Assembly (NCBI RefSeq): GCF_001375535.1
Contig: NZ_LN831197.1
Span: forward strand, 4,242,660-4,306,659
Reading direction: 5' to 3'
DNA: 64,000 nucleotides
Source of the DNA: Bacillus niameyensis
GTDB lineage: Bacteria > Bacillota > Bacilli > Bacillales > Bacillaceae_C
In this document: positions 5,935-62,750 of the stretch, piece after piece
Position numbering within the stretch: position 1 is the stretch's first letter
Layout: each line of letters starts with the position of its first letter
Translations under genes and position numbers: made by a program
Notes under the pieces: model-generated
Databases searched by the model: none
Told to the model about the DNA's origin: nothing
What the model saw: the letters and a program-made list of their open reading frames with translations, nothing else

Positions 5935-6151
5935 CGAAAAGCGGAAGGCGGCGTTTAGCGACGTACAAGCTTTTATAATAAGGATGAACGGCTAAGGACG
6001 CGCCGTCCTAGCGCAACGCCGTTCTGACCAACATCCTGTTGGCCTGAGATAAAGGAAACACAGTGAGCCGATAGGCGAACTGATGTTGACTTATCGTAGG
6101 AAGAAGCTGAAAGTTTGCTAGTCGTTGCCGCCTGGAGCTAGACAACGAAAG
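5935..6151. repeat. GC-richer intergenic repeat-like element
   Basis: About 215 bases without a credible ORF, clearly richer in G and C than the flanks. The ends are partly complementary (GCGGAAGGCGGCG near 5941, TTGCCGCCTGGAGC near 6124). Inner inverted repeats include AACGGC / GCCGTT and CCAACA-TCC-TGTTGG. It resembles structured intergenic repeats with ends like GCCTGGAGCTAGACA that I associate with several Bacillaceae genomes. Whether it is dispersed in this genome cannot be judged from one copy. It could also be a transcribed structured RNA. Confidence 0.5.
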
Positions 6152-45096: not shown

Positions 45097-45576
45097 ATGA
45101 AAATTACTATTATCTCTGTTGGAAAACTAAAGGAAAAATATCTGAAACAGGGGATTCAAGAATACCTGAAGCGATTAAGCGCCTATGCGAAAGTTGAGAT
45201 TGTCGAAGTAGCAGACGAAAAAGCTCCCGAAAATTTAAATGAAGCAGATATGGAAATCGTAAAGAAGAAAGAGGGAGAACGGATCCTATCCCATCTTTCC
45301 CAAGACACCTATGTCATCACATTAGAAATTAACGGAAAAATGCTCACATCCGAACAACTCGCCGCCAAAATCGACGAACTCGCAACCTACGGAAAAAGTA
45401 AAATTGCCTTCATTATCGGCGGCTCACTTGGCCTAAGTGAAGAGGTTCAGAATCGAAGTGACTACGCCTTATCATTTTCTAAAATGACATTTCCACATCA
45501 GTTAATGAGGTTGATTTTGTTGGAGCAAGTGTATCGGGGGTTTAGGATTATTAGGGGGGAACCGTATCATAAATAG
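45097..45576 (+). CDS. rlmH: 23S rRNA (pseudouridine1915-N3)-methyltransferase RlmH
   Basis: SPOUT methyltransferase acting on pseudouridine 1915 of 23S rRNA. It has 159 residues and is complete. It shows the trefoil knot motif [13 protein letters not shown] and the conserved C-terminus [11 protein letters not shown]. The last 18 bases are the insertion site of the island that follows, and the gene stays intact after insertion, as orfX/rlmH does in staphylococci with SCC elements. AAAAGGAAAA precedes ATG 45097. Confidence 0.97.
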
Positions 45577-47232
45577 AGGCAAAAATTGTTGCAGATAAGG
45601 TGGTATTTTGTTGTCGAAAACGGGTATTGGTTGTGAAAATGCATCTTCCGTATCCGTTTCACGATACAACATGTGGATAAGTGTAAAGGTCTTGGATATA
45701 TTGACCTCCGTAAAGTCAAAATCAAGCTCAATTTTATTAACTGATCGTGAGCGTTCCTTTAATTGCTTAATCGTAATTTTTTTAATAAGTAATTGTAACA
45801 ACTGTTTTCCATTTTCCCTTGAAGCATTCCTATATACGTTCAGGAATTTTTCTAAGAGGGATTCTATGATTTCAGGTTGTATGATCTTTGTATCGGTAGA
45901 GCCTATTTGTACTGTAATCTCATTTTTTCTCTGGTCTAACTCGCCTTTTTCATTAGAAATCTTCTGCAACCTTTCCTGTAAGATACCCGTTGGAAGGGTG
46001 TTCTTTTCAAATGCTTCCATGTAACGATCTTGAAGTGATTCTATTTCGGACAACCTTTTTTCGATTTGCTCCAATTCTTTATTGAGTTGATTCAAGGAAT
46101 CGACGGAATGTGAATTTTTATCTTGAAGCGATTTATATAGCCACCTTTTATTGGATAGGAAAGTTTCAATTTTATTGATGACTTTATCTTCTGCTTCATA
46201 CGCTTTTATTGAGTTTGCCTTACATGCAGATGATCCTTTATTGTGGAAATTACCACATACATAATAGCGATGCCTACATTTTGTTCCATCTTTTCGTGTA
46301 TATGTAGTAATAGAAGGAACCATGCCTTTACCACAATCAGGACAACGCAGAAGACTGCTAAGTAAAAATGGTTCATGTGATTGACGCTGTTTGAATGATT
46401 TACTTTTTCTCCTTGCTTGTACAACACTCCACAGTTCGTCTGAAACTATGGCTTCATGCTGACCTTCAACAAGTATAGGATTGGGGTTTTTACCTTTTCT
46501 CCGCTTCGTATCCCAATTTTCAACCTTTAACCAACTTATTTTACCGTTATAGATAACGTTATCTAAGATAGTTTCCACACCATTAATAGAAAAGTGGCAG
46601 TTACGTTTTGTCCTATATCCTGCTTTATTTAAGTGATTAGCAATTGCCTTTAAACCTTTACCACTGGCATACAATTGAAAGATAAGTTGTATCACCTTAG
46701 CTTCATTTTGGTTAATTACAAGCTCCTTTTCGATAGTGTCATAGCCAAAAACAACACCGCCATTCCAAGAACCCTCTAATGCCCTCTGTTTCATTCCGAG
46801 TTTTACGTTTTCTGATAATGTGTTACGCTCCATTTCTGCAATGGAAGCCATTAGTTGAACGACTAAACGACCAATAGGGCTACCTGTATCAAAGTTTTCC
46901 GAGTATGAAATGAACTTTACCCCATAATCCTCAAACTTATCCAAAAGTGTGAGTGTATCTAACATATTTCGGGAAAGTCGTGAGATCTTCCATACAAGAA
47001 CTGCTTGAAACTTATCTTTTTCAACATCGGCAACCAGTCTTTGCATAGCAGGACGCCCTTTAATGTTCTTTCCAGAAATCCCTTCATCAACATATTCTTC
47101 CGCTACTTGCCATCCATACAATTGTGTATATTGACGTAGGGTCTGTAACTGAGCGGAAATACTATAGCCCTCCGCCGCTTGTTCTTCTGTCGAAACCCGA
47201 CAATAAATTGCCACACGTTTTATTTCACCCAT
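45502..47232 (-). CDS. Large serine recombinase 1
   Basis: Site-specific recombinase of the large serine (resolvase/invertase catalytic) class, here 576 residues. The catalytic domain covers residues 1-150, with Ser14 in [11 protein letters not shown] and [11 protein letters not shown]. The recombinase domain follows, with a zinc ribbon (CPDCGKG ... [15 protein letters not shown]) and a coiled coil at about 380-450. The start at 47232 follows AAGGGAG. The last 25 codons are read from the antisense of rlmH across attL, so the C-terminus depends on insertion. It presumably integrates and excises the island. Confidence 0.9.
45559..45585 (+). other. Left attachment site of the SCC-like island (attL)
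   Basis: GAACCGTATCATAAATAG at the rlmH end differs at a single defined position from the SCC site pattern GARGCNTATCATAARTRR. It is directly joined to AGAGGCAAAAA (45575-45585), which is the reverse complement of TTTTTGCCTCT found just inside the boundary copies at 55438 and 56696. Direct repeats outside and inverted repeats inside are the architecture of SCC termini. Confidence 0.8.
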
Positions 47233-49586: not shown

Positions 49587-50687
49587 ATGAAAGAAGACTT
49601 AATGTCAGTTACAATTGATGCTGATTTAAGAGAATATATGGTCAACAATAAAAAGATTCTCATGGGATTTGTTTCAGGTAAGGCACTACGGGAAAAGAAT
49701 AATGATATTCCCAACAAGCCGAATACCAGGGATTTCATGGGTAATGATAATAAATATGTCCCAGAAATGAAGAAAACACTTCGTAATAAGCCTGAGTTAT
49801 TTGTCTATATGAATAATGGAATTCATATAATAGCAGAATCATATATCAGAAATGAAGATGGAACAACAAAGGTATTTTTCAAAAGGGGACAGGGTGTTTA
49901 CAATGGAATACACACTGAGAATGTCCAAGAAACGGAAGGTAAATCTAATAGTTATGTGATTCTAGTTATCTATTTTGATGTACCGGAAGAGGAAATCGTG
50001 GACATTATTGTTGCAAAAAATTCAAGTACACCAACGAAGGAGATAAGCCGTGGGGAAAAGCTAGAACGCTATAATTGGGTAAAAAAGATTTTACCTGATT
50101 ATCCGATTAAATATAAAGAAAGTGATAAGTACGACTTGGATATTGCCACAGTTTTGCATATAGCGGGTATTTTTCAGGTGAATGATCGGACAAGTCAATT
50201 TGTCAATAAGGATTACAGAAAGTTTCAGAGCTATCTACGCAATAAAGGTGACATCGTGAAAAAACACAATGATGGCAAGATCAATTTGGAAAGAACTCGT
50301 TATATATTAAAGGAGCTTATTGATCTTTACCTGTTTATCCGATCAGATGAAGAATGTATTGTGAGTGTAAAAAGGAATTTGAAAAAGACAGGTTGGCTTC
50401 GCAAAGGGGTTATTACTGATTCTTTGATGTTTAACATCCTTAATGCGTTTAATTTTGCGGTTTATGTACCAAAAACGCTCTATCCATGCTTTAAAAAGAA
50501 CTATGACATCGAACGTTTGAAAGATTTAACGAAAATATCATTTCCTCAAATTGTAAACCAATTGCAATCCTATGAAGATGAGGGGTTAAAGGTATCGGAA
50601 ATCTCACGGGAAAAGAACATCTACCAAGAGATACAAAATATTATGTTGACGGCAGACTTGGAACAAAATCTAATCCCTGTTGAATAG
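49587..50687 (+). CDS. AIPR-like abortive infection protein
   Basis: A 366-residue cytoplasmic protein. NNGIHIIAESY (about residue 77) and VYNGIHTENVQE (about 110) correspond in spacing to the NxGI and NGxQT motifs of AIPR (abortive infection phage resistance, PF10592) proteins. KNSSTPTKEISRGEKLERYNW resembles the following helical part. Family placement is by pattern only. GAAGGAG lies upstream of ATG 49587. It is the first plus-strand gene of the island after the recombinases. A phage-defence role is inferred. Confidence 0.5.
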   Translation: MKEDLMSVTIDADLREYMVNNKKILMGFVSGKALREKNNDIPNKPNTRDFMGNDNKYVPEMKKTLRNKPELFVYMNNGIHIIAESYIRNEDGTTKVFFKRGQGVYNGIHTENVQETEGKSNSYVILVIYFDVPEEEIVDIIVAKNSSTPTKEISRGEKLERYNWVKKILPDYPIKYKESDKYDLDIATVLHIAGIFQVNDRTSQFVNKDYRKFQSYLRNKGDIVKKHNDGKINLERTRYILKELIDLYLFIRSDEECIVSVKRNLKKTGWLRKGVITDSLMFNILNAFNFAVYVPKTLYPCFKKNYDIERLKDLTKISFPQIVNQLQSYEDEGLKVSEISREKNIYQEIQNIMLTADLEQNLIPVE

Positions 50688-50870: not shown

Positions 50871-50958
50871 AAGTGATTACTAATGACTAATGGGGCAAGT
50901 AACCTATCCATGGACCTATGGATTTTGTGTTGATTTATAAGGGGGGAGGAGATTACTT

Positions 50959-51789
50959 TTGAGTAAAGATAAAAGAAAAGATATACAAGAAACAGGTAAA
51001 GGGCTTGTACTTGATACTGTATTAAGTGTAGGGAGTGAGACTGCTGCAGAGATTGCAAAAGAATCAATTACTAGCATATTTGGGGATCTTCTGGTTGACA
51101 CCGCAAGTTCTCTTCTTCCTGGTATTTCAGGAGCAGTCCAGGGATATAAGCGTGTCCGCTTCGAAAGAAACATAACTGCTTTTACAGAGCAATTATATTC
51201 TAATATTGATACGATACGGGTGAACATAGAAAGCAAGAATAATGAGCAAAAAGAAAAAATTGATCAATTGTTTAATATTGTCTTGGACTATGTTATTGAT
51301 GAACAGCAAGAAGACAAGATTGAATACATGGTGAATGGATTTTTAAACTTAACAAATCATGAACAAGTATCAGATGATTTTGTCCTTACGTATTATGATG
51401 TTCTTAAAGAATTGAGAATGGTAGATATATCAGTACTTAGATTAATGTACAATTCACGTTATATAATTGCCAACGACACCACTGAGACATTTCGGGATAT
51501 TATGGAAAGGCATGGACTTAGCTACGAGCAATACCAATCAGTGAGACGAAACCTTCAAAGAATAGGTTTGCTCATAACAAAGACAGATCTAAATATAACT
51601 GATGATCTTGAAGAAATAGTTAAGAAATTCAAGGAGATATACGCATACTTAGACAAAGCAACCAATCCTAAATATACACGATCTCTTCCAAAGTTAAGGC
51701 TACCAAAATTAAAATCCAAGGAGAACCTGGAGCTGTCCAAGTTTGGAAAGGATTTTGTTAGGTTTTTCATTAGTAAAGAAGATGATTAA
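50959..51789 (+). CDS. Unknown island protein with glycine/alanine-rich N-terminal region
   Basis: A 276-residue protein beginning at TTG 50959, 6 bases after GGAGGAG. Residues 12-65 are an amphipathic, small-residue-rich stretch (GLVLDTVLSVGSETAAE, TASSLLPGISGAVQGY) that could insert into membranes. The middle is acidic and helical. Residues 155-205 look like a winged helix (SVLRLMYNSRY, YEQYQSVRRNLQRIGLL). The C-terminus is Lys-rich. I know no family. It stands between AIPR-like and AlbA_2-like genes, and a defence or toxin function is possible. Confidence 0.7.
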   Translation: MSKDKRKDIQETGKGLVLDTVLSVGSETAAEIAKESITSIFGDLLVDTASSLLPGISGAVQGYKRVRFERNITAFTEQLYSNIDTIRVNIESKNNEQKEKIDQLFNIVLDYVIDEQQEDKIEYMVNGFLNLTNHEQVSDDFVLTYYDVLKELRMVDISVLRLMYNSRYIIANDTTETFRDIMERHGLSYEQYQSVRRNLQRIGLLITKTDLNITDDLEEIVKKFKEIYAYLDKATNPKYTRSLPKLRLPKLKSKENLELSKFGKDFVRFFISKEDD

Positions 51790-51906
51790 TACTACAACTT
51801 TTTACCATGCCTATATTGGGGTTAGACCCGATAAGTTGAAGTTGCAATTTCATACAAAAGCATAATGAAAGTCAGTCAATAGATATAAAAACTGTAGGTG
51901 AACATA

Positions 51907-53052
51907 TTGGTATCGCTCAAAGAGAAAATTAATGAATTAATTAGTAGAAAATATGAAGGGAATTATTGGGATTATAAGCAACAATATCATAAAAACAGAG
52001 CAGATTTGTTACACGATATTATCTGTTTGGCCAATAACACCGAGAATCGAGATGCTTATCTTATTTTTGGAATAACAGATGATGGAAGAATCCAGGGCGT
52101 AGAAGATGATCCAAATAGAAAAAACCAAGAAAATTTCATTTCATTTTTAAGAGATAAGGATTTTGAGGGTGGATATAGACCAGTTGTTGAATATAATAGT
52201 ATTGAATTAGAAAGCCATAGTATTGATGTCTTAATTATCAAGCAAAGTAATCGGACACCATATTTTTTAACAAAATACTTTAGCGATGGTAAGAAAAAAG
52301 TGAGAGCATATCATATTTATTCGAGGATTATGGATACAAATACACCTAAAGATAAATCAGCTGATGAAAGGGTTGTAGAGAATTTATGGAAAAGAAGATT
52401 CGGACTTCTTCCATTGCCAATAGACAGATTAAAGCATTCCCTATCGGATAAGAAAAATTGGACAAAAAAAGAATCTGTTAGTTATTATAACCCATCCCCC
52501 GAATTTACTATTGAACAAATAGATGATTATGAAAATCGGTATCAAAATACGAATCGAGAATTCTATTCTTATTATCAAATGAATTCTTCTACTTCATATG
52601 AAACACTTCATTGCAAATATTATATGACGGTTTTATTCGAGTGTCAGTCTGTTGTCCTGGATAGTGGAAGGTATATTGCACCGGTTCCTAACTGGGGATT
52701 TATTCCATTAGATAAATATCATCGAGAAAAACTATCTTATAAATATTATGTTAAAGGTTCGCTGAAATATCATTTAAATATTTTTTTATTTGATGAAGAT
52801 AATGAAGAAGCAAGAATTGCGAGAGATAGACTTATGGAATTAGTTCTATTATACAATTCGGAAAGGGAAAAAGAACTATTTGAATCCTATATTAGGGGAA
52901 ATATTACTGATATTACCCAGGATTTAGAAGAAATGAAAAGAAGTAATTTAGTTTTTGAAACTGTAGATGAACATATTAGGAATGTTGAGAATAAAAGAAT
53001 TCATACGGGGATATTGCTTAACAGGGAATTACTGAACTTCAGAAGGCAGTAA
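51907..53052 (+). CDS. AlbA_2/Schlafen-like domain protein
   Basis: A 381-residue protein. The N-terminal 130 residues match the AlbA_2 (PF04326) domain of Schlafen-like proteins: WDYKQQYHKNRADLLHDIIC, then LANNTENRDAYLIFGITDDG and IQGVEDDPNRKNQ. Such domains bind nucleic acid and are frequent in defence islands. The rest is acidic and Tyr-rich with no recognised domain. TTG 51907 is spaced 6 bases after AGGTG, while GTG 51898 is part of that site. The gene ends before boundary copy R1. Confidence 0.75.
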   Translation: MVSLKEKINELISRKYEGNYWDYKQQYHKNRADLLHDIICLANNTENRDAYLIFGITDDGRIQGVEDDPNRKNQENFISFLRDKDFEGGYRPVVEYNSIELESHSIDVLIIKQSNRTPYFLTKYFSDGKKKVRAYHIYSRIMDTNTPKDKSADERVVENLWKRRFGLLPLPIDRLKHSLSDKKNWTKKESVSYYNPSPEFTIEQIDDYENRYQNTNREFYSYYQMNSSTSYETLHCKYYMTVLFECQSVVLDSGRYIAPVPNWGFIPLDKYHREKLSYKYYVKGSLKYHLNIFLFDEDNEEARIARDRLMELVLLYNSEREKELFESYIRGNITDITQDLEEMKRSNLVFETVDEHIRNVENKRIHTGILLNRELLNFRRQ

Positions 53053-53099
53053 TCATATCACTTATGAATAACGGCTAAATATTGGGATTAGATTTAGGA

Positions 53100-53157
53100 A
53101 AACAGCACTGAGATTTTATCCCAATGCTGTTTTTTGCCCCTTAAATCACTACGGTGA
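53100..53157 (+). repeat. Cassette boundary copy R1
   Basis: A hairpin terminator (AACAGCA / TGCTGTT, T6) continues into TTTTTTGCCCCTTAAATCAC and ends with the palindromic TCACTACGGTGA. The same block, with substitutions, is at R2 and R3. The rlmH-like direct repeat that follows R2 and R3 is not clearly preserved here; GGGAATATCCC stands in its place. Confidence 0.85.
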
Positions 53158-53277
53158 CGGGAATATCCCAGAGAGGACATTCTATTGAGTATTTAAATAC
53201 TTATTATTTGATTTTGTATCTTTATGAATGTACTTTTGATAATATAATAAGATATAACTACTTTAGGGGAGATAAAT

Positions 53278-53778
53278 ATGGCTGATTACGGAAAAGTATT
53301 GAAAATGAATGAAATAAACGGCTTCGCTGTATCCCTATGCCTTCTTGATGACTTAGGACGAACAAGTTCCTATAGTCAAATCATGCAGGAAAAATATAAG
53401 AATGGTTATACTCAGGTGATTATTAATTCTTATCTCATGTTAAAAATTGCAGAACAAATGCTTAGAGATGGTTGGACGTTACTTTCCATATTTATCGATG
53501 ATCCTAGCGTTGACGAGGAAACTAAAAGAGAGGTAAGCTCTCTTGTTGAAGGTATAAAAAAGAATCCACTAAACTTTATTAAGTTGAGTGAGTATTTAGA
53601 ATGGGCTTTAGAAGATGGATCTATTTTTATAGATAAAGTTACAATGGCAAAAAAAATTAAAGAAAGATATAAAACTTGCGAATTGTATTCTAATGGAGTT
53701 CTTTTTGGTGATGCCAAACAATTGGTCTTTTCTGAATATATTCAAGAAATAATAGAGGATTATCTAAATGCGGGATAA
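53278..53778 (+). CDS. Unknown protein, first gene of a three-gene island operon
   Basis: A 166-residue soluble, helical, acidic protein (MADYGKVLKMNEINGF). It contains QVIINSYLMLKIAEQMLRDG and ends in an acidic helix. No catalytic motif stands out. AGGGGAG precedes ATG 53278. The stop overlaps the next ATG by 11 bases, so the three genes are translated together. It is the first gene after boundary R1. I do not recognise the family. Confidence 0.7.
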   Translation: MADYGKVLKMNEINGFAVSLCLLDDLGRTSSYSQIMQEKYKNGYTQVIINSYLMLKIAEQMLRDGWTLLSIFIDDPSVDEETKREVSSLVEGIKKNPLNFIKLSEYLEWALEDGSIFIDKVTMAKKIKERYKTCELYSNGVLFGDAKQLVFSEYIQEIIEDYLNAG

Positions 53779-54370
53779 ACTTCAGTCTGATATTTTTAAA
53801 ACGTTATCTACAGCCTTCTTCGCTGCAATATCGTATTTTTTTGCGGAACTTTTCCAAATTAGTACCCTGATATTTAAATTTTCTGATACCAAGTGGCACG
53901 TCACTGCAAGTGTTGCAATTTATACAGCGGTTTTAAATAGTTTTCTATTGTATGCCCTTTCAAAGAGGACAAGTGTACAGGTGGTTATTATTGAAAGAAA
54001 AGATAAATCAGATAAAATACGTTTGGATGATAAACCAAGAGCGACTGAGGTAAGAATAAATCTAAATGGAAATTTAAATAAAATAAAAAATAATGTAGAA
54101 ATTATTTTTCCTCAATGGATAGACGTTATGGCAAAAGGATCTCCAGATTTGAAGCAAAGTGAAAATGACTCCCAAAAGTATTTAATTGATTTATCTGATA
54201 TTGTTCACAATAGTGAAATTGAGGTTGGCATATATTACTTCGATATTACTATAAAACCTATTTATGAAGAATCAGGAAGGAAAGGAGAGGTTCTTGCAAA
54301 GGTCAATGGTAATAAATTTAGATATGCTAAAAATGTAAAAAAGTTAACGGTTCATTATAGTATAGAATAG
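53768..54370 (+). CDS. Unknown membrane protein with two N-terminal helices
   Basis: A 200-residue protein. Two hydrophobic helices (about 10-35, TLSTAFFAAISYFFAELF; about 45-65, ASVAIYTAVLNSFLLYAL) are followed by a beta-rich domain of 130 residues containing EVRINLNGNLNKIKNN and IEVGIYYFDITIKP. A two-helix membrane domain attached to a soluble sensor-like domain is the layout of many membrane-disrupting defence effectors. That is analogy, not homology. It is embedded in a tight operon. Confidence 0.7.
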   Translation: MRDKLQSDIFKTLSTAFFAAISYFFAELFQISTLIFKFSDTKWHVTASVAIYTAVLNSFLLYALSKRTSVQVVIIERKDKSDKIRLDDKPRATEVRINLNGNLNKIKNNVEIIFPQWIDVMAKGSPDLKQSENDSQKYLIDLSDIVHNSEIEVGIYYFDITIKPIYEESGRKGEVLAKVNGNKFRYAKNVKKLTVHYSIE

Positions 54371-54382
54371 GAGTGTGATATA

Positions 54383-55327
54383 TTGTTTAGTAAGTATATT
54401 GATAATTCAATAAATGAAGACAAATCTTTTTTGACAATGGATGATATTTTAACCAACATTCTAAAGTTTGAAGAATGGAAAACTGTTGAAACTGACCCAT
54501 TTACCCAGCAACCCTTGAATTATGAAATTACTAAAGTATATGATGAAAATCAGAAAATAGAGATTAAGAACACAGAGTTTACCTTTAATTACATTAAATA
54601 TTCTTATGATACCGTTATTTCTGGTCAGGAAACTAACCCCATTTCTGCAGAACGATTAAAATCTACTTCCGGTGCAATTGTAATTTATACAGATGGAATA
54701 CGCACTCAATATCTTGTTGATAGGGCAAGGGGACCGGCTGCTTTAAGAATTTTACGTGTAATTAACAATTCCGATAAAAATAAAATCATTGAAGCACAAT
54801 CGTTCAATATTACAGAGGACTTTTTTATTTGGCTGATATCAAGATTTATGAACGGGAATAGAATAATAGATGAGGAAAACTCATTAAGTATTAGTAGAAT
54901 AATAGGCTTTAGAGGAGAGGGAAGTCAAAAACAGGCAGTGCTTTCTGGCTCTGGTAATGAAGTGATGAATCTACTAAGCTCACTATCTTTTTTAATTGAA
55001 ATGGATGTTATGACTGAGATTGAGGTTCGAATATTATGTGGTTCAGAAACCTTTGAGATAAGACTTTACTCAATAAATTCCCAACTAGATATATTAGTTG
55101 AAAACTATGTAGGCGAATATATGATGTTACAGAATGAAGAAAAGGACCCAAGAGTTTTATTGAATACATTTATTGATATAATTCCAAGCATAATGAATGC
55201 TTACAACGAAGAAGTTGATAATGGTAATTGGACTAAGAATAGTAAAAGGGAGTTTACATTAGGTCTAGTCGATTCTGTGAAGGAAAAACTTGATCTTTTA
55301 TATCCATCCCAAGGCACAGAGAATTAA
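54383..55327 (+). CDS. Unknown protein, third gene of the island operon
   Basis: A 314-residue soluble protein starting at TTG 54383, nine bases after AGGAG. The middle is beta-rich (FTFNYIKYSYDTVISG, GAIVIYTDGIRTQYLVD). GFRGEGSQKQAVLSGSGNEV at about 175-194 may be a ligand loop. A repeated beta pattern follows (MTEIEVRILCGSETFEIRLY). No family is recognised. It probably works with the small helical protein and the two-helix membrane protein. The operon ends in the R2 terminator. Confidence 0.7.
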   Translation: MFSKYIDNSINEDKSFLTMDDILTNILKFEEWKTVETDPFTQQPLNYEITKVYDENQKIEIKNTEFTFNYIKYSYDTVISGQETNPISAERLKSTSGAIVIYTDGIRTQYLVDRARGPAALRILRVINNSDKNKIIEAQSFNITEDFFIWLISRFMNGNRIIDEENSLSISRIIGFRGEGSQKQAVLSGSGNEVMNLLSSLSFLIEMDVMTEIEVRILCGSETFEIRLYSINSQLDILVENYVGEYMMLQNEEKDPRVLLNTFIDIIPSIMNAYNEEVDNGNWTKNSKREFTLGLVDSVKEKLDLLYPSQGTEN

Positions 55328-55406
55328 TATTTCTATCTGCACTGGTTTGATTGTATTAGTGAAGACCAATGCTTTCACGTACATAATCAAATAAATATTA
55401 TCTATT

Positions 55407-55484
55407 AAAATAGGCATCGGTACTTCACCAATGCCTATTTTTTGCCTCTTAAATCACCACGGTGAATCATAATATCATAAATAG
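55407..55484 (+). repeat. Cassette boundary copy R2 with rlmH-like direct repeat
   Basis: The terminator stem AATAGGCAT / ATGCCTATT with T6 runs into TTTTTTGCCTCTTAAATC, the palindrome TCACCACGGTGA, then TATCATAAATAG (55473-55484). The last 12 bases are identical to the rlmH end. The stem differs from R1 and R3 on both arms in a compensating way, so the hairpin itself is conserved. Confidence 0.88.
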
Positions 55485-55929
55485 TAATGTTCTAAAAAAG
55501 GTCTGACAAGGATTTTATATAAGGTGGGCTATTTAATGATGAACAAAACAGAATAGAACACTAAGAGGCAGTTGTTATAAAACGCCTTTTGTATTCTTAG
55601 CTTCAATGATGATATAGGTAATTTATTTTAGATCTTGAACCTCGAAAAATTTTTTGGGGGTAGAACATAAGAATTTTGATTTGGATAGTGATAAGTTGTA
55701 ATATTACTATACAGAGAGAAACAACATTTCTTTTTTCATCCATCTATCCTTCGTTCATGTTTTTCATTTCAAGGTTCAACCTCAATTAAATAGGATTATG
55801 AGAACCCACCTAAACAATGTTAATCCACAAAGTTCCTTATAATCAGAGGGAATTGCATAAAATGAAGCTGGTATAGTAAGGAAAAGAATAAGTTACTTTC
55901 TAAATTCCACATTTAAAGGAGAAAAGAAA
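55485..55929. other. Non-coding start of cassette 3
   Basis: About 445 AT-rich bases before the gene at 55930. An imperfect hairpin lies at about 55560-55606 (CTAAGAGGC ... GCC ... TCTTAG). I see no credible ORF and no clear promoter. Confidence 0.5.
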
Positions 55930-56349
55930 ATGAAAAAACAGTATGGTAGACAACTAGAAGAAACTATTGATTTGGCGATGAGGTTATATCAACTTCCTTC
56001 AATCATTAAAGAGGGTCATGAAGAACTTGAGCATGTGAATGAATGTGAATACTTTAAAAAAGCTGATGGAACATATTTAAGGGGTTATCCAGTCCATTCT
56101 ACAACGCATCTCATTGAAAAGGGAGCAGAAAGAGAATTGACTTTCAGTAAAGAAATTTACTTAACTGAAAATGGGACTTTACAAAAGTTTTATTCCTATT
56201 CTGAATGGCCTTATTGTGAAAGCTGCAAGAAAACCCATTCCTACATACATCGTGAAATAGCAAAAGATCAGACCCTTACTGAAAATGAACTCGAAAAAGT
56301 AGAGGGATTTATCACTAATTCATTTTCCTTCAACAAAAAATCCGCATAG
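55930..56349 (+). CDS. Unknown small protein with a CxxC motif
   Basis: A 139-residue protein and the only gene between boundaries R2 and R3. It has an N-terminal helix (YGRQLEETIDLAMRLYQL). A middle region follows with CEYFKKADGTYLRGYP, then WPYCESCKKTHSYIH, which could bind zinc together with nearby His. AAAGGAG precedes ATG 55930 at good spacing, and a terminator follows at 56421. It is not recognised. As a single-gene cassette in a defence-like array it may be a stand-alone defence or anti-defence protein. Confidence 0.7.
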   Translation: MKKQYGRQLEETIDLAMRLYQLPSIIKEGHEELEHVNECEYFKKADGTYLRGYPVHSTTHLIEKGAERELTFSKEIYLTENGTLQKFYSYSEWPYCESCKKTHSYIHREIAKDQTLTENELEKVEGFITNSFSFNKKSA

Positions 56350-56420
56350 TTACCCCTTCCATTTGGTTAACCACATAGGCTATGTAAATCCCATGAATTG
56401 TCACTTTTTGAGCTACTTGA

Positions 56421-56455
56421 AGAACCTTAGACCAGCTTTCTAAGGTTCTTTTTAA
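56421..56455 (+). terminator. Terminator of cassette 3
   Basis: AGAACCTTAGA pairs with TCTAAGGTTCT, followed by T5. Confidence 0.9.
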
Positions 56456-56664
56456 TTGCAAAAGATGTGAGTAGGACAAAAGATACAGGAAAAAAACCAT
56501 ACCTGTTTATTGCTAGAAAAATTATCATTTTACGCAAATTTTACGCATAAATTTATAAAACCTTATTAAATCAATACTTTGACTGCATCTTCGACCCCGA
56601 CCACCGGTATCTAACTCCTCGCTATGCGAAAACGGTAGTATGTTTCGACAATAAATTAAATAGG
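56456..56664. other. Non-coding stretch with a GC-richer patch
   Basis: Contains two TTTTACGCA copies near 56530-56550 and a GC-richer patch at about 56582-56640 (TTCGACCCCGACCACCGG) that differs sharply from the AT-rich surroundings. It has no start codon in a useful frame. It may be the relic of another insertion. Confidence 0.4.
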
Positions 56665-56740
56665 AAACAGCATTGAAAGTTAAATCCCAATGCTGTTTTT
56701 TTGCCTCTTAAATAACCACGGTGAACCATATCATAAGTAA
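56665..56740 (+). repeat. Cassette boundary copy R3 with SCC-type direct repeat
   Basis: The terminator stem AACAGCATTG / CAATGCTGTT with T7 runs into TTTTTTGCCTCTTAAAT, then CCACGGTGAA, then GAACCATATCATAAGTAA (56723-56740). The last 18 bases match the rlmH end at 15 positions. They also match the staphylococcal pattern GARGCNTATCATAARTRR at all but one defined position. This is the best candidate for a right attachment site. Confidence 0.88.
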
Positions 56741-56789
56741 CTGCAACCCATTAATATAATGATAATTGAATAAAATTTAAAAAATATTG

Positions 56790-56904: not shown

Positions 56905-58668
56905 ATGGAGCTTAAAAGCCTAACCGTAGAAAATTTTCGTAACTTTGGCAAAATAAATATTGATTTAACAAATCAAAATGTTGTATTTGGAATGAACGAT
57001 GTAGGTAAAACAAATTTACTATTTGCTATTAGATTCCTACTAGATAGAGATATTCGTAAAAATGGTTTCAAGGAGTCTGATTACTTTAAAAATGAAAAAG
57101 AAAGAGTTATAAAAATAACATTAGGTATAAACCTATCAGATCGCTTAACTAGTGAAGATTCGCAGCACATTATAGCTAAGGTTGGTAGGGCAAGATCGAG
57201 TAATGAATTGGATAATTTCTATTTTCAAGTAAAAGGTACCTATGATAATAGTGAAGGAGTAGGCATTCCTATAATTTATTGGGGGAGTAATATAAATAAT
57301 TTAGAAGAAATCCCGCAAAATGGTATCTATAGCAATCTTGATAATTTATTTAAGATTGTTTACGTTGATCCGACAATAGACTTAGAAAAAACCTTTTCAA
57401 AAAATAGAAATAAGCTATTTGATCAAAATAAGCTGGATGAGTATGACATTACCATATCCAATGAGATTAAAGACTTAGGAATGGAAATGAATAAAAAAAT
57501 AAGTAGTATGGGGGTTATTCAATCTTTTCAAGATACTATTACAGAGGAATATAGAAAGTTAAAGAAAGAAAAAATAACTATTGAAATGAAATCAGAAATT
57601 ACCATTAATGGTTATTTTGGCAATTTAATTCCTTATATCAAAAGAGAAGATGATGATAATATCTATCCTACATCAGGAGATGGAAGAAAGAAAATATTAG
57701 CTTATTCCTTAATAAATCATCTTATTCAAGCACAGGAAGGTAATAAAATAATTATTTATTTAGTTGAGGAACCAGAAAATAGTTTACATAGGTCTATGCA
57801 AATTGCTTTATCCAAACAACTTTTTAATTCTAAGGTATATAATTATTTCTTTTTATCAACCCACTCTTCTGAACTATTGTATGAAATGGATAATGCTTCA
57901 CTAATTCGAATTTATTCAGAAGATTGGATAGGATGTGAATCATATATTTATAATGTTAATGAAGAGTATAAGAATGTAAAAAAGGAACTTAATAGAGCAT
58001 TGTCGACGGCTTTATTCTCTGAGAAAGTACTATTAATAGAAGGTCCTTCAGAAAAAGTATTGTTTGAAAAAATTTTAGAAGAGGTATACCCAACATATGA
58101 GTTAGATGGAGGTTACCTATTAGATGTAAATGGAATAAAGTTTAAACCTTATGTAGAAGTATTAAAAGGTTTAAATATAACCCCAATAGTAAAAACAGAT
58201 AATGATTTAAAAGCAAAAAGGGGTAATGCAACAACTTTTGATTTAATAGGAATCACGAGATGTTTAAAACTCATAGAAACTGAGGAAGACGAAACAATAG
58301 ACCCTGTTGAAATAGATTACTTTTATGAAAATGAGCAAGGTAAAAGGGTTTGGACAAATAGAGGGAAAAACCAAATGATTAAGGATAAAAAGCTAGAACT
58401 ATATGAAGATTTTAAAGAAAGCATAAAGCATTTTAAAGATAATAATATATATTTATCAAAAATTGATTTAGAACATGATTTATATGAAGTTATTGGTGAC
58501 AGAATGGAAGAAATTTTGGGATCAAACCCTATAGACTATCTTCAAGATCATAAATTACTTAATATGATTGAATTAACTAATGAGTTAACGAAAGGGGATT
58601 GTATAAAAATAATAAAGCATCCTCTATTTGAATCGTTAAGAAAGTTGGTGCCATATGAAATTGATTGA
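56905..58668 (+). CDS. gajA: Gabija endonuclease GajA (OLD-family ATPase-TOPRIM)
   Basis: Nicking endonuclease of the Gabija antiphage system, controlled by nucleotides. It has 587 residues. The N-terminal ATPase has Walker A GMNDVGKT (29-36) and Walker B IIYLVEEPENS (about 283-292). The C-terminal TOPRIM begins at VLLIEGPSEK, where E379 is the catalytic Glu; as I recall, that is the number reported in Bacillus cereus GajA. NITPIVKTDND forms the next acidic motif. AAGGGG precedes ATG 56905. It overlaps gajB by 14 bases. GajA appears intact, but its partner is split. Confidence 0.9.
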   Translation: MELKSLTVENFRNFGKINIDLTNQNVVFGMNDVGKTNLLFAIRFLLDRDIRKNGFKESDYFKNEKERVIKITLGINLSDRLTSEDSQHIIAKVGRARSSNELDNFYFQVKGTYDNSEGVGIPIIYWGSNINNLEEIPQNGIYSNLDNLFKIVYVDPTIDLEKTFSKNRNKLFDQNKLDEYDITISNEIKDLGMEMNKKISSMGVIQSFQDTITEEYRKLKKEKITIEMKSEITINGYFGNLIPYIKREDDDNIYPTSGDGRKKILAYSLINHLIQAQEGNKIIIYLVEEPENSLHRSMQIALSKQLFNSKVYNYFFLSTHSSELLYEMDNASLIRIYSEDWIGCESYIYNVNEEYKNVKKELNRALSTALFSEKVLLIEGPSEKVLFEKILEEVYPTYELDGGYLLDVNGIKFKPYVEVLKGLNITPIVKTDNDLKAKRGNATTFDLIGITRCLKLIETEEDETIDPVEIDYFYENEQGKRVWTNRGKNQMIKDKKLELYEDFKESIKHFKDNNIYLSKIDLEHDLYEVIGDRMEEILGSNPIDYLQDHKLLNMIELTNELTKGDCIKIIKHPLFESLRKLVPYEID

Positions 58669-59902
58669 TCAAGATGAGAGAAGTGAAATACTAGAAAACA
58701 GTGGTGATATAGTGGTTTCAGCTAGTGCAGGCTCTGGTAAAACCACAATTATGGTAAAGAAAATGGGAATAGAGCTCGAAAAAATAAAGGATCACCGAAC
58801 GATAGGAGCAATAACATTTACTGTAAAAGCAACCGAGGAAATTAAAAAAAAGGCAGGAAAAAATATTAAGAAACCCTTTGTTGTAATGACCAATGATTCT
58901 TTTATTGAGAGTGAGATAATAAGACCTTTTATTAAAGATGCATTTGGTAAAGATTACGGAAATGATTATTCTGTTGAATATGGTAATAAATATCAGTTTG
59001 ATAAATATTCATCTGGATTAAAGCAGTTAAAAAACAAAAATATTTTAGGTAGTTTTGACGATAACAAACTTAATTTTAATTTTAAGGTTGCTCATGATAT
59101 TTTAGATAAATCAAAAGCTGCACAGGAATATATTAAAGCAAAATATTCTTGGATTTTTATAGATGAATACCAAGATTCTGATAGAGACATGCACCGTTTC
59201 TTTATGAAGTTAAAAAACGAATTGAAAATTAAACTATTTATTGTTGGTGATTCAAAACAGGCAATATATTTGTGGCGTGGAGCTATGAGTAACATATTTA
59301 AATTATTAGATGATGAAAATTTTAGTTTTTATGAACTTGTAACCAATTTCCGTTGTGATAAAGAAATTGAAAACTATGCAAATTTATTTCATAATCCAAA
59401 ATACTATATGCATTTTGATAAAAACGTAGAGAATGTAGTTATTAAAAACTTTAACAACTTTAATAGTTTTTATGAGCGAAGGGATTTTGTAGGTTTTGTA
59501 GATAAATTCAAAGATCTTATCTTTGAAAAGACTCTTGACCTCGATAAAGAAGTAACAATTATTGCAAATTATAACAATGATGCTAATAAGATAACTGAAT
59601 TATTAAACCTTGAGGGGTTTAATTTCGTATTTATTCCCAAAACGCCAATTGATGAGGGTATTCCAAATGGGAACTTATTAAAGGAACTTGCATTATATTC
59701 GAAGAATTCAACTTACACAATCTATGATTTTTTAGAAAATACTCATATTGATGCAAGAATCCGCACGAGATTTGAAGTTAATAGTATTATAGGGAAACTA
59801 AAAAAAGATAAAAATTTAGTTCCTGACATAGTTGAGGAAGTAGTTTCGGACTTAGCTAATTATCTAGGACTATCAATAGGTGTAACCGTCAAGTACAATT
59901 AA
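58655..59902 (+). pseudogene. gajB: gajB, 5' part, UvrD-like helicase interrupted by IS21
   Basis: Helicase subunit of Gabija. This fragment holds Walker A SASAGSGKTT (residues 22-31), motif Ia AITFTVKATEEI, Walker B WIFIDEYQDSD, motif III GDSKQAIYLWRGA and part of domain 2. True gajB sequence stops at 59880; the last seven codons and the stop come from the insertion element. Motifs V and VI are missing here and appear at 62399-62750. Joining 59880 to 62399 restores one frame of 525 residues. As it stands the product should not be a working helicase. Confidence 0.9.
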
Positions 59903-59940: not shown

Positions 59941-60714
59941 TTAAGATTCAACACCTGTTTCTATAAATAAGGCCTGTCTATATTTCATTCTGATGCTATC
60001 TTGGTGTTCATCAAATGTAATGACTTCGCTTCTATGGAGGAGGCGATCTAAGATCGCCGTTGTTAATGTAGTATCTCCCAAGAATTTCCCCCATTCACCT
60101 GGTCCCTTATTAGACGTTAATATGAATGCTGTTTTGTCATACATATCATAAATAAACTGAAAGAAGAGCTGCGCATCCTGTGTTTCATAAGCCATATACA
60201 TGATGTCGTCAATGATAATCAAATCCGATAAAGTAATTCGTTTGTACCTTGTTCTAGATTTATTGATATACTCTCTGGTCTTAAGTATATAAATAAGGCG
60301 ATCCATTGAGATAAAGGAAACTTGATATCCTTGGTTAACCGCATGAATGCCCAGTCCAGTTGAGAGATGCGTTTTCCCCACTCCAGGTGGTCCCATCATA
60401 ATTAGTGTGAAACGTTCTTCAATCCAAGACAGTTCTTTGAGTACATTCAGTTGCTTCTCACCAATCGCAGATTGCTCTTCTAAGTTAAATTGATCTAATG
60501 TTAATTCTTGCGGAAACTCTGCCCATTTCATTAACTTGGCACGATTCTTTTCTTCGCGACAATTTAATTCATATCCGAGTACCTGATCTATAAATTCATA
60601 GTAGGTCCAACCTTTTGACTCTGCTTCCCTAAGCATATTCGGTAGTTCTTTTGCCGTTTCTGCTAATCTAAGTGTTCTGCATTTCTGTTGGATCTCATTA
60701 TAGGAATTTGTCAT
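59941..60714 (-). CDS. istB: IS21 helper ATPase IstB
   Basis: A 257-residue AAA+ ATPase related to DnaC that directs target choice for the IstA transposase. Walker A is GPPGVGKTHLS and Walker B is DLIIIDDIMYM. The ATG at 60714 lies one base after the istA stop and uses GGAGGT at the end of istA. The length and motif set are complete. Confidence 0.95.
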   Translation of the reverse strand: MTNSYNEIQQKCRTLRLAETAKELPNMLREAESKGWTYYEFIDQVLGYELNCREEKNRAKLMKWAEFPQELTLDQFNLEEQSAIGEKQLNVLKELSWIEERFTLIMMGPPGVGKTHLSTGLGIHAVNQGYQVSFISMDRLIYILKTREYINKSRTRYKRITLSDLIIIDDIMYMAYETQDAQLFFQFIYDMYDKTAFILTSNKGPGEWGKFLGDTTLTTAILDRLLHRSEVITFDEHQDSIRMKYRQALFIETGVES

Positions 60715-60715
60715 C

Positions 60716-62287
60716 TTATCTACCTCCTTGGAGCACGTGGAGATAGATATCCTGAGTTCGTTCAGGAGCTATTAGCTCCTCATATTTCTCATTGATCAGT
60801 TCTTTTTTTGGTAAATCTCTACTTTCCTGAATCTCCATTGAAATCGCAATATCTCTTAAATCATTTGCGCTGGTTAATTCTAACCTTTTCATTTCTTTTA
60901 CCGCATTTTTGATATGACGCGGATATTGCTCTGCGGCTTTAAGGACCACTTTAAATTGTTCAATAGAATGCCTTGGATAGTGCTCTTGTAAAGTTTTGAT
61001 AAGCCAAGTGGATATTTCTGTATCAGCTAGTTGTTTAGTGACTTGTTCCGCCAGCTTATCTCTCTTTGATTGTGACCGTTGTCGATGTTTGGGATCTGTT
61101 ATAACTTCTCCTTTTTCTTTCGATAATGTGTGTAATGCAATTGGACTACCGTTTCGCTCGAGGGCAATGCTTAATATTTCTCCCTTAACAGAGACATAAG
61201 CGATGTTCTCCTTACCATTTTGAAAGGTTCCTAACGGAACACTATACCGATTCCCATCAAAACGAATAATATTGTCTTTATGGATTGTTCTTGTTATATT
61301 TATAGATGAGATATTTTCGAAAATATATTCACCATTGACCTTTTGAAGATGCTGCTTTTCGAGGGCGTGCACTTCGAAAGGTCTTTTCTTTGTATTATGA
61401 TGAACTTTATAATTACCTGTTCTTTTTAACCATTTCAAAGATGAATGTTGCCATGTGCCTAAGTCCTTGAAAATGCGATGTTTCGTAAAATTATTCTTCA
61501 CAAATTTTATTACTTGCTCAATTTTTCCTTTCGACTCTGGATCGCTTTTTCTGCACAGATAAATCTTAAATTTTCTAGTTTGATGATATTTAGTAAAGGA
61601 TTCCGTAAGGATTAAATCTCCTGCATTCTCGCTAACCGCCAATAAACGATCTTGGTCATACACTATCTCCTCTGTCATTCCTCCAAAGTATCTAAATGCA
61701 TTTTCCTGCATTCTAATCAAGTCAGTTGTTCGAAGAGGCCGATCCATCCACTCTACATATTTGAATCTTGAGTGGGATAAGATAAATCCGGCCACATATA
61801 ATTTCTTTTTCTGCCCTGTCTCTGTGTAAACAAAGGTTTCTCCAAAATCAACCTGCATTTGCTTTCCCATCGGAAGTTCTTCAACTGTGCCATACATTCG
61901 TTCTATTGTTTCTTTAGGAATTTGATACTTGTCTCTTAAGTCATTTACATAGTTTCGTACCGTATTTTCAGCAACTGATTTTATATTATATTTCTCTTGT
62001 AACCAATCATAAATTTGAGCACTTGTTAAGTCTGGATGTTCCTTTAACCATGCCAATATGTCATCTTGGTAGGGATCTAGTTTCTTTGATCGTGTTTGTA
62101 ACGAATCAATAAACCCAGCAAATTCCTCCGGAGTCATCCCTAAATATTCAATTACTCTATTTCTAGATATTTTTAACCTTCTTGCAATTTTACTGTTTGA
62201 GAACCCCATATTCTTCAAACGATGTATTTCTTGGTAAACCATCCACTTTTCCACTTCCTGTTCTCTCCCTTTCGACATACTCTGCAT
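60716..62287 (-). CDS. istA: IS21 transposase IstA
   Basis: DDE transposase of 523 residues. The N-terminal HTH (MGFSNSKIARRLKISRNRV) is at about 31-50. Catalytic acidic residues are in QVDFGETF, VYDQDRLL and DPESKGKIEQ. A C-terminal beta-barrel region follows (RFDGNRYSVPLG). The start is ATG 62287 or 62278, and neither has a clear ribosome site. It is followed directly by istB. Confidence 0.95.
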   Translation of the reverse strand: MQSMSKGREQEVEKWMVYQEIHRLKNMGFSNSKIARRLKISRNRVIEYLGMTPEEFAGFIDSLQTRSKKLDPYQDDILAWLKEHPDLTSAQIYDWLQEKYNIKSVAENTVRNYVNDLRDKYQIPKETIERMYGTVEELPMGKQMQVDFGETFVYTETGQKKKLYVAGFILSHSRFKYVEWMDRPLRTTDLIRMQENAFRYFGGMTEEIVYDQDRLLAVSENAGDLILTESFTKYHQTRKFKIYLCRKSDPESKGKIEQVIKFVKNNFTKHRIFKDLGTWQHSSLKWLKRTGNYKVHHNTKKRPFEVHALEKQHLQKVNGEYIFENISSINITRTIHKDNIIRFDGNRYSVPLGTFQNGKENIAYVSVKGEILSIALERNGSPIALHTLSKEKGEVITDPKHRQRSQSKRDKLAEQVTKQLADTEISTWLIKTLQEHYPRHSIEQFKVVLKAAEQYPRHIKNAVKEMKRLELTSANDLRDIAISMEIQESRDLPKKELINEKYEELIAPERTQDIYLHVLQGGR

Positions 62288-62393
62288 AAGTATACCGAAA
62301 GGAATAATAAACTAGTAAACTGTTTAATCTTATTTGTAGAAATCTGTTTACCCTTATTTGTGGAAAACTGTTGAGTCTAGTTTAGCAGTTACA

Positions 62394-62750
62394 ATAGGAG
62401 AAGATGAAGTTGAAAAGTTCTGTGAGAGTATATGTAATAATAAATATGATATGGCTTTCAAATTAATAGAATCAAAGCATAAAGTAATGACAGTTTTTGC
62501 TTCAAAGGGATTAGAGTTTGACCAAGTAATAAGTTTTGCACGTTATTACAAAATTTATAATGATGAAAATTTACAAAACCACTATGTATGTATCACACGA
62601 GCTAAAGAAAAGTTTATTATGTTCATTGATGATGAAGTATACTATGCTCATGTTTTAGATGTAGCAGATAGGAACGGTATAAATGATACTAATAAGTTAG
62701 TTAAATATGAAGAAAGTGAAGAAAAAGGTAAAATTACTAGCTTTAATTAA
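62394..62750 (+). pseudogene. gajB: gajB, 3' part
   Basis: The C-terminal piece of the UvrD-like helicase, starting with the target duplication. It contains motif V VMTVFASKGLEFDQVISF and motif VI YVCITRAKEKFIMF, both essential for SF1 helicases, and reads on to a natural stop at 62750. There is no start signal of its own; an open frame extends back to 62358 only through the IS end. It is in frame with the 5' part after exact removal of the IS and one target copy. Confidence 0.9.

Follow-up and report, generated by a model that had tools for sequence, protein, structure and literature searches.

Terminator-like hairpins at candidate attachment sites of staphylococcal cassette chromosome-like elements downstream of rlmH in Bacillus niameyensis and other bacilli

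We analyzed a window of 64,000 nucleotides from Bacillus niameyensis (contig NZ_LN831197.1; 4.68-Mb genome), in which an island downstream of rlmH carries three copies of a short module, here called R1 (53100 to 53157), R2 (55408 to 55485), and R3 (56664 to 56746). Each copy consists of a hairpin followed by TTTTTTGCCYCTTAAAT and ACGGTGA. With a high degree of confidence, we interpret each module as an attR, the distal attachment site left by an integrative element that targets rlmH and resembles the staphylococcal cassette chromosome (SCC). This interpretation draws on the anatomy of the sites, their association with rlmH, the limits of homologous blocks at a GA dinucleotide, the conservation of the hairpin, and the orientation of neighboring genes.

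A first-pass annotation of the window had described three shared copies of the hairpin and ACGGTGA, and this description holds. Allowing up to three mismatches, we found TTTTTTGCCNCTTAAATNACNACGGTGA at 53130, 55438, and 56697, each time exactly and on the forward strand (0 of 100 shuffles gave a match), and the same three matches were the only ones in the genome. At all three copies, the nearest upstream gene is oriented toward the module and the 3' arm of the hairpin runs straight into a T-run. The minimum free energies (MFE) of the hairpins were −11.0 (R1), −14.9 (R2), and −13.8 (R3), with z scores of −2.8, −5.9, and −4.8. The stems of R1 and R3 are alike and that of R2 is different; R2 and R3 each pair with themselves despite their different sequences. 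The annotation had also reported an rlmH-like direct repeat in both R2 and R3. A copy of the rlmH tail behind ACGGTGA is clear in R3, whereas that of R2 is degenerate and aligns only with a gap; R1 has none. No Rfam family matched the module at the gathering threshold, and at E values up to 1 there was a single chance-level match between 52900 and 57000, away from the module.

The left end of the element, which the annotation had missed, lies at rlmH itself. This gene ends in GGGGGGAACCGTATCATAAATAGAGGCAAAAATT. As in SCC, the insertion is at its 3' end: the left end at 45559 falls within rlmH, whose tail is repeated in R3. The mirrored left-end motif GAGGCAAAAA (45576 to 45585) overlaps the rlmH stop codon and adjoins two Ccr-like genes, ccr1 and ccr2, both encoding large recombinases of the serine type. 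Their proteins contain Resolvase, Recombinase, and zinc-ribbon domains in that order, all above Pfam cut-offs. The best NCBIfam model for both is CcrB, with scores (Table 1) under its cut-off of 900 bits, short of what would identify ccrA/B or ccrC genes of SCC; for this reason we call the recombinases Ccr-like and the element SCC-like. As in SCC, the two ends bear direct repeats, with GAACCRTATCATAARTA at both rlmH and R3, together with inverted repeats, with TTTTTGCCTC and GAGGCAAAAA in mirrored arrangement. The ccr1 open reading frame (ORF) enters the 3' end of rlmH in antisense by about 70 nt (45502 to 45576), an overlap that is about equal in several relatives. Since the last residues of ccr1 are encoded by the rlmH target, they would change in a circular form of the element.

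The right end has a 25-bp half-site with the outer decamer TTTTTGCCTC, followed by the crossover GA and then by the copy of the rlmH tail. Outer decamers TTTTTGCCTC and GAGGCAAAAA occupy positions −25 to −16 and +16 to +25 relative to GA. For a serine integrase, a 25-bp attP half-site has been described whose outer part is contacted by the zinc ribbon (PMC3783163), and CcrAB is stated to require the dinucleotide GA at rlmH (PMC10581047). Judged by sequence geometry, namely a 25-bp half-site, an outer zinc-ribbon motif, and a central dinucleotide, the two ends together match the symmetric attP of a large serine recombinase around GA. The circular attachment site would be TTTTTGCCTCTTAAATAACYACGGT-GA-ACCGTATCATAAATAGAGGCAAAAA, with two 25-bp half-sites, and the mirrored decamers are putative zinc-ribbon contacts.

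We found the exact module pattern in 62 named contig stretches, which together with the three window copies make up a set of 65 sites. Their titles name Lederbergia, Gracilibacillus, Rossellomorea, Virgibacillus, Oceanobacillus, Lysinibacillus, Aneurinibacillus, and other bacilli; a single Paenibacillus strain accounts for two of them, and one is labeled Pseudomonas. At 59 of the 65 sites, GA is followed by an rlmH tail that aligns without gaps and differs at no more than 3 of 15 positions; at 55 sites it differs at one position or none. There is also a second class of site at the rlmH locus, with the outer motif AAACCTCATT / AATGAGGTTT at an equal distance from GA. At one locus (L124 in genome G151, oriented positions 1075 and 11414), the 25 nt that adjoin the rlmH tail copy on its right side are the same at rlmH and, 10.3 kb away, behind a module, as if two elements with a common left end had been placed there in tandem.

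Comparisons between genomes place the predicted crossover at GA. When the fetched regions were compared all against all by blastn (on the plus strand, with a minimum block length of 500 nt and rlmH-proximal pairs skipped), homologous blocks ended at a site in three genome pairs. Block 1 of the window, which includes R1, is 90.2% identical to its counterpart in L. panacisoli (G000/G012), and the match stops at the same GA; the recombinase end is 75.6% identical between these two genomes. Block 2, which includes R2, is 83.4% identical to a genome of another family (G000/G175), where the homology ends 18 to 21 nt past GA, that is, at the end of the rlmH tail, and where the stem is similar to that of R2. 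In the third pair (G340/G379), 4,595 nt are shared at 99.3% identity and end 6 nt past GA. In all three pairs, the shared blocks end at or just past GA. The annotation had proposed successive capture, a view that is largely borne out. Because block 1 with R1 and block 2 with R2 recur in other genomes, the end modules appear to travel with their gene groups. At the opposite end of the element, the ccr1 end was aligned to genome G063, in which the upstream DNA is not rlmH; 12 of the 16 alignments begin exactly at GA. The left end of this G063 element (L188, contig C22) is joined at GA to non-rlmH DNA, which suggests use of a secondary site. In L. lenta (G011), a module directly abuts another left end of the same type.

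The R3 tail ACCATATCATAAGTAACTGCAA is identical to the 22 nt behind GA at the rlmH end of genome G007, where no second site occurs in the next 19 kb past rlmH, such sites being present elsewhere in that genome. For this reason, R3 is probably the junction with the chromosome.

To characterize the distribution of such sites, we scanned genomes at two taxonomic levels. Among order-level genomes, a site including GAACC was found at up to two mismatches in 41 of 397 genomes (27 of 135 genera), and the control matched none. A shorter pattern, at up to three mismatches, was found in 10 of 34 family-level genomes (control, 2 of 34). A further count of 167 of the 397 genomes (reversed-pattern control, 3 genomes) is an upper bound, as in some genomes the pattern matches the tail of rlmH itself at one mismatch. 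The 41 genomes contain 54 sites, of which 28 are on the same contig as rlmH and one is in a genome without an rlmH match. On the shared contigs, 26 of the 28 sites lie on the rlmH strand, 1.7 to 43.2 kb on its 3' side. A relative of ccr1 (E value of 1e-30 or better) was found in 31 of 45 site-bearing genomes. Together with the adjoining ccr1 and ccr2, these counts agree with the annotation's proposal that the boundary module is tied to rlmH and to serine recombinases. A different candidate is a common terminator repeat, dispersed through the genome and without a role in mobility, which would explain why each copy has a hairpin and T-run behind a gene. We rejected it on the genome-wide count of three, all confined to one island; in addition, the module continues into a 25-bp half-site, the rlmH tail follows at nearly all of the 65 sites, and the sites are linked to rlmH, so that we give this reading virtually no chance of being correct.

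The hairpin is a conserved part of the site. Defined by an MFE of −6 or lower and an end no more than 6 nt from TTTGCC, a hairpin was present at 52 of the 65 sites, compared to 22.6% of 340 control TTTGCC sites at the same loci (median z = −4.3). The stems fall into several unrelated sequences that nevertheless form hairpins, in line with the earlier proposal that structure is kept despite changes in the stem. The second class of site, with AAACCTCATT as its outer motif (type 2), mostly lacks the hairpin: with an 8-nt limit, hairpins were found at 27 of 32 type-1, 2 of 10 type-2, and 2 of 11 other sites, the last class including two ends of rlmH itself. The upstream ORF is oriented toward the module at 50 of the 58 sites that have one, and these 50 ORFs end a median of 130 nt before it; thus, the copies do close left-to-right gene groups, as first described. 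Among the downstream ORFs, neither orientation clearly prevails (31 versus 24). These features are consistent with terminator activity of the hairpins, and the T-run may double as the U-tract of a terminator and the outer contact of the recombinase. An A-tract lies on the 5' side of 30 of the 52 hairpins, compared to 14% of far-upstream 10-mers, and for this reason some hairpins may terminate transcription in both directions. In the literature searched, which mostly lacks subscription papers, we came across no description of an SCC attachment site joined to a terminator.

We propose that a Ccr-like recombinase pair beside rlmH would integrate the element at the 3' end of the gene. After integration, one half-site would remain at rlmH, and the other would lie at the distal end, followed by the former rlmH tail; the T-run of this distal half-site would also act as the U-tract of the terminator behind the cargo operon. 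If further elements inserted at this position, and if recombinase regions were then lost and some of the sites decayed, the series R1, R2, and R3 would result. Recombinase activity, the formation of circles, terminator activity, and the order of insertions and losses are parts of this model predicted from the DNA sequence. An alternative is that the three modules are duplicates of one ancestral right end, produced by unequal or homologous recombination instead of three arrivals. Similar modules could recombine, and the stems of R1 and R3 are similar, but the stem of R2 differs, block 2 and R2 occur in another family with a similar stem, and block 1 and R1 occur in L. panacisoli. We therefore regard duplication as very unlikely.

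A more substantial alternative comes from the annotation, which had likened the island to an integron. Integron cassette arrays are series of gene units that each end in a recombination site, and they use a tyrosine integrase, IntI, with attI and attC sites. The island is similar in that it, too, is a series of gene units with a recombination site behind each. It differs in that the two adjacent recombinases are of the serine type, in an attP/attB-like geometry around GA, and in a hairpin that is terminator-like and variable. Under the integron-like reading, cassettes made up of a recombinase-less operon, a site, and a terminator would be moved singly and in trans by nearby serine recombinases. 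We evaluated it using 50 segments between sites, drawn from regions chosen because they hold the module or are of close kinship and thus not a random sample; the segments include those from rlmH to the first site and a doubtful one of 417 bp in G151, and the fifth site of G020 was left out. Segments without a detected recombinase are common: 34 of the 50 lacked a match to ccr1 or ccr2 longer than 500 nt (median length, 3.5 kb), compared to 16 segments with one (median, 18.8 kb). Runs of three, four, and seven such segments occur in G020, G003, and G006, respectively. In these genomes (L175 in G020, L178 in G003, and L192-L193 in G006), series of segments of 1.2 to 14.5 kb in which no ccr1/2-like gene was detected extend downstream of rlmH, and their ends mix the AAACCTCATT / AATGAGGTTT class with unclassified ends. 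Seven loci with recombinase-less segments contained 52 ORFs, of which 49 were scanned after three short ones were dropped. Of the 79 Pfam families matched by these ORFs, 25 were listed; they included families for spore germination, nucleoside hydrolase, transport, restriction-type, and Schlafen-helicase proteins, and none of the 25 was a serine recombinase. PADLOC matched 14 families. Some segments appear to hold whole functional units, such as genes for spore germination, nucleoside uptake, or restriction.

Other results count against movement of single cassettes. Among the fetched regions, no homologous block of at least 500 nt had sites at both limits. The left limits of blocks 1 and 2 carry no attachment site, and no further site was found upstream of block 1 in G012 back to rlmH (21.7 kb) or upstream of block 2 in G175 back to the start of the contig (12.6 kb). 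The limits of a spore germination block common to G003 and G020 do not fall at sites in both genomes. Moreover, the queries of the recombinase screen were ccr1 and ccr2 only, such that other recombinases could have escaped it, and at least two of the 34 segments (in G082 and G259) hold short remnants of ccr1. Finally, published composites of the Bacillus group are interpreted as tandem islands (PMC10061031). The comparison with integrons is supported only in part, since the shared blocks lack a site at their left limit, and we consider an integron-like array unlikely. The same low probability applies to its broadest form, in which the rlmH 3' end of Bacillales would be a general array of recombinase-less defense and metabolic units, moved in trans by a few Ccr-like recombinases, with the outer motif (TTTTTGCCTC or AAACCTCATT) marking specificity classes and the terminator belonging to one class, as a serine-recombinase counterpart of the integron. 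As the explanation of R1, R2, and R3, we prefer tandem SCC-like elements with internal loss over individually captured cassettes.

Several observations weigh against our interpretation of the modules as attR sites. The linkage to rlmH, which the annotation's check had asked to hold always, was judged on the 28 same-contig sites; 25 of the 54 sites are on a contig other than that of rlmH and could not be assessed. Among the 28, two lie far from rlmH (477 kb in G005 and 929 kb in G298), as does a site in G008, at about 1.4 Mb, that came from the family-level scan and is outside the set of 54. No ccr1 relative at an E value of 1e-30 was found in 14 of the 45 site-bearing genomes. A qualifying hairpin is missing at 13 of the 65 sites and a recognizable ungapped rlmH tail at 6, including R1 and R2. 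Two of the three window copies are probably inactive, because R1 has lost its right half and the right half of R2 is degenerate. Four of the 16 ccr1-end alignments miss GA, with one beginning 10 to 14 nt before it and three beginning 86 to 619 nt inside the gene end. In a blastn search with 20 kb near the right end of the window, the flank of R3 was not linked to a conserved chromosomal gene; the only two matches fell in one 0.7-kb stretch of G016 and, for that reason, represent a repeat. The Gabija genes to the right of R3 are unexplained by the proposed element. Precise Ccr-dependent excision and integration, like the circle, are predicted; what was observed is limits of homology at GA.

The cargo of the island is listed in Table 1. 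The three-gene group of block 2 (53278 to 55327; 166, 200, and 314 amino acids [aa]) had no family match above cut-off in Pfam, NCBIfam, PADLOC, or PHROGs. Its last gene has matches in 7 of the 397 genomes, including that of the window, with a close relative only in G175, where it is accompanied by the same end module. We would guess that the group is an undescribed defense system. The 139-aa gene between R2 and R3 had no match at an E value of 0.001 in the same four databases. Nearby, about 90 nt (56520 to 56615) match scattered places in several relatives and are perhaps the remnant of another element. To the right of R3, PADLOC identified a Gabija-type pair, GajA and GajB (56905 to 59902 and 62358 to 62750), the helicase gene of which is interrupted by an IS21 element (istA/istB, 59941 to 62287). 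Far from the island, a Bacillaceae-1 RNA (Rfam RF01690) lies at 5976 to 6042.

Table 1. Features of the rlmH-associated island in the B. niameyensis window (positions are those of the window).
Feature	Position	Strand	Basis
rlmH, target gene; 3' end is the integration site	45097..45576	+	NCBIfam RlmH above cut-off; sole genome match
ccr1, Ccr-like large serine recombinase, 582 aa	45502..47250	-	PF00239, PF07508, PF13408; NF047343 CcrB, 384.5 bits
Left attachment site: crossover GA (45559-45560) and element half-site ACCGTATCATAAATAGAGGCAAAAA	45559..45585	+	ccr1-end homology to G063 begins at this GA
ccr2, second Ccr-like large serine recombinase, 493 aa	47302..48783	-	PF00239, PF07508, PF13408; CcrB, 184.6 bits
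AIPR-family gene, cargo	49587..50687	+	PF10592 above cut-off
Block 1: Abi_alpha-like gene (Pfam below cut-off), PDC-S50 (Schlafen AlbA_2) gene, R1	50930..53157	+	
R1 terminator-like hairpin	53100..53132	+	Folding
R1 half-site, 25 bp, and GA; right half (rlmH tail) absent	53131..53157	+	Pattern match, alignment
Block 2: three uncharacterized genes (166, 200, 314 aa) and R2 with degenerate rlmH tail	53179..55485	+	
R2 terminator-like hairpin	55408..55440	+	Folding
R2 half-site, GA (55464-55465), degenerate rlmH tail	55439..55485	+	Pattern match, alignment
Uncharacterized gene, 139 aa, between R2 and R3	55930..56349	+	
R3 terminator-like hairpin	56664..56699	+	Folding
R3 half-site, GA (56723-56724), rlmH tail ACCATATCATAAGTAACTGCAA; likely chromosome junction	56698..56746	+	G007 rlmH end

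Composite SCC-like islands at rlmH are already known, including in Bacillus; the fusion of a terminator-like hairpin with the attachment site may be the new part. SCC and its composites share with the island the target at the 3' end of rlmH, large serine recombinases of the Ccr type, the GA crossover, tandem composites, and degenerate inverted repeats that include the final codons of rlmH. In contrast to SCC, the recombinases here do not reach the NCBIfam cut-offs for Ccr, a terminator-like hairpin is joined to the distal attachment site, and the ccr1 ORF enters rlmH. In the sections of PMC10061031 consulted, SCC-like islands downstream of rlmH are reported in Bacillus and others; some are composites in tandem, with several repeats of the rlmH end, and the majority carry genetic-conflict genes. 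The island resembles them in its large serine recombinases, rlmH-end repeats, tandem composition, and genetic-conflict genes; the anatomy of the attachment site and the terminator are described here and not in those sections. The Enterococcus cassette chromosome, according to the parts consulted of PMC6222049, likewise targets rlmH and has ccrAB, att sites of about 50 bp with inverted repeats, and multiple attR sites, the latter in 16 of 32 elements. Those parts mention no terminator.

Our results provide a sequence definition of the ends of widespread rlmH-targeted elements outside Staphylococcus. Because the ends are now defined by sequence, islands at rlmH, including the defense genes that they carry, can be delimited by pattern search. 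Possible movement in trans of small units at rlmH that lack a recombinase is now a question in checkable form. Finally, that the outer contact of the recombinase and the terminator of the cargo share one T-run is a suggestion that can be tested.

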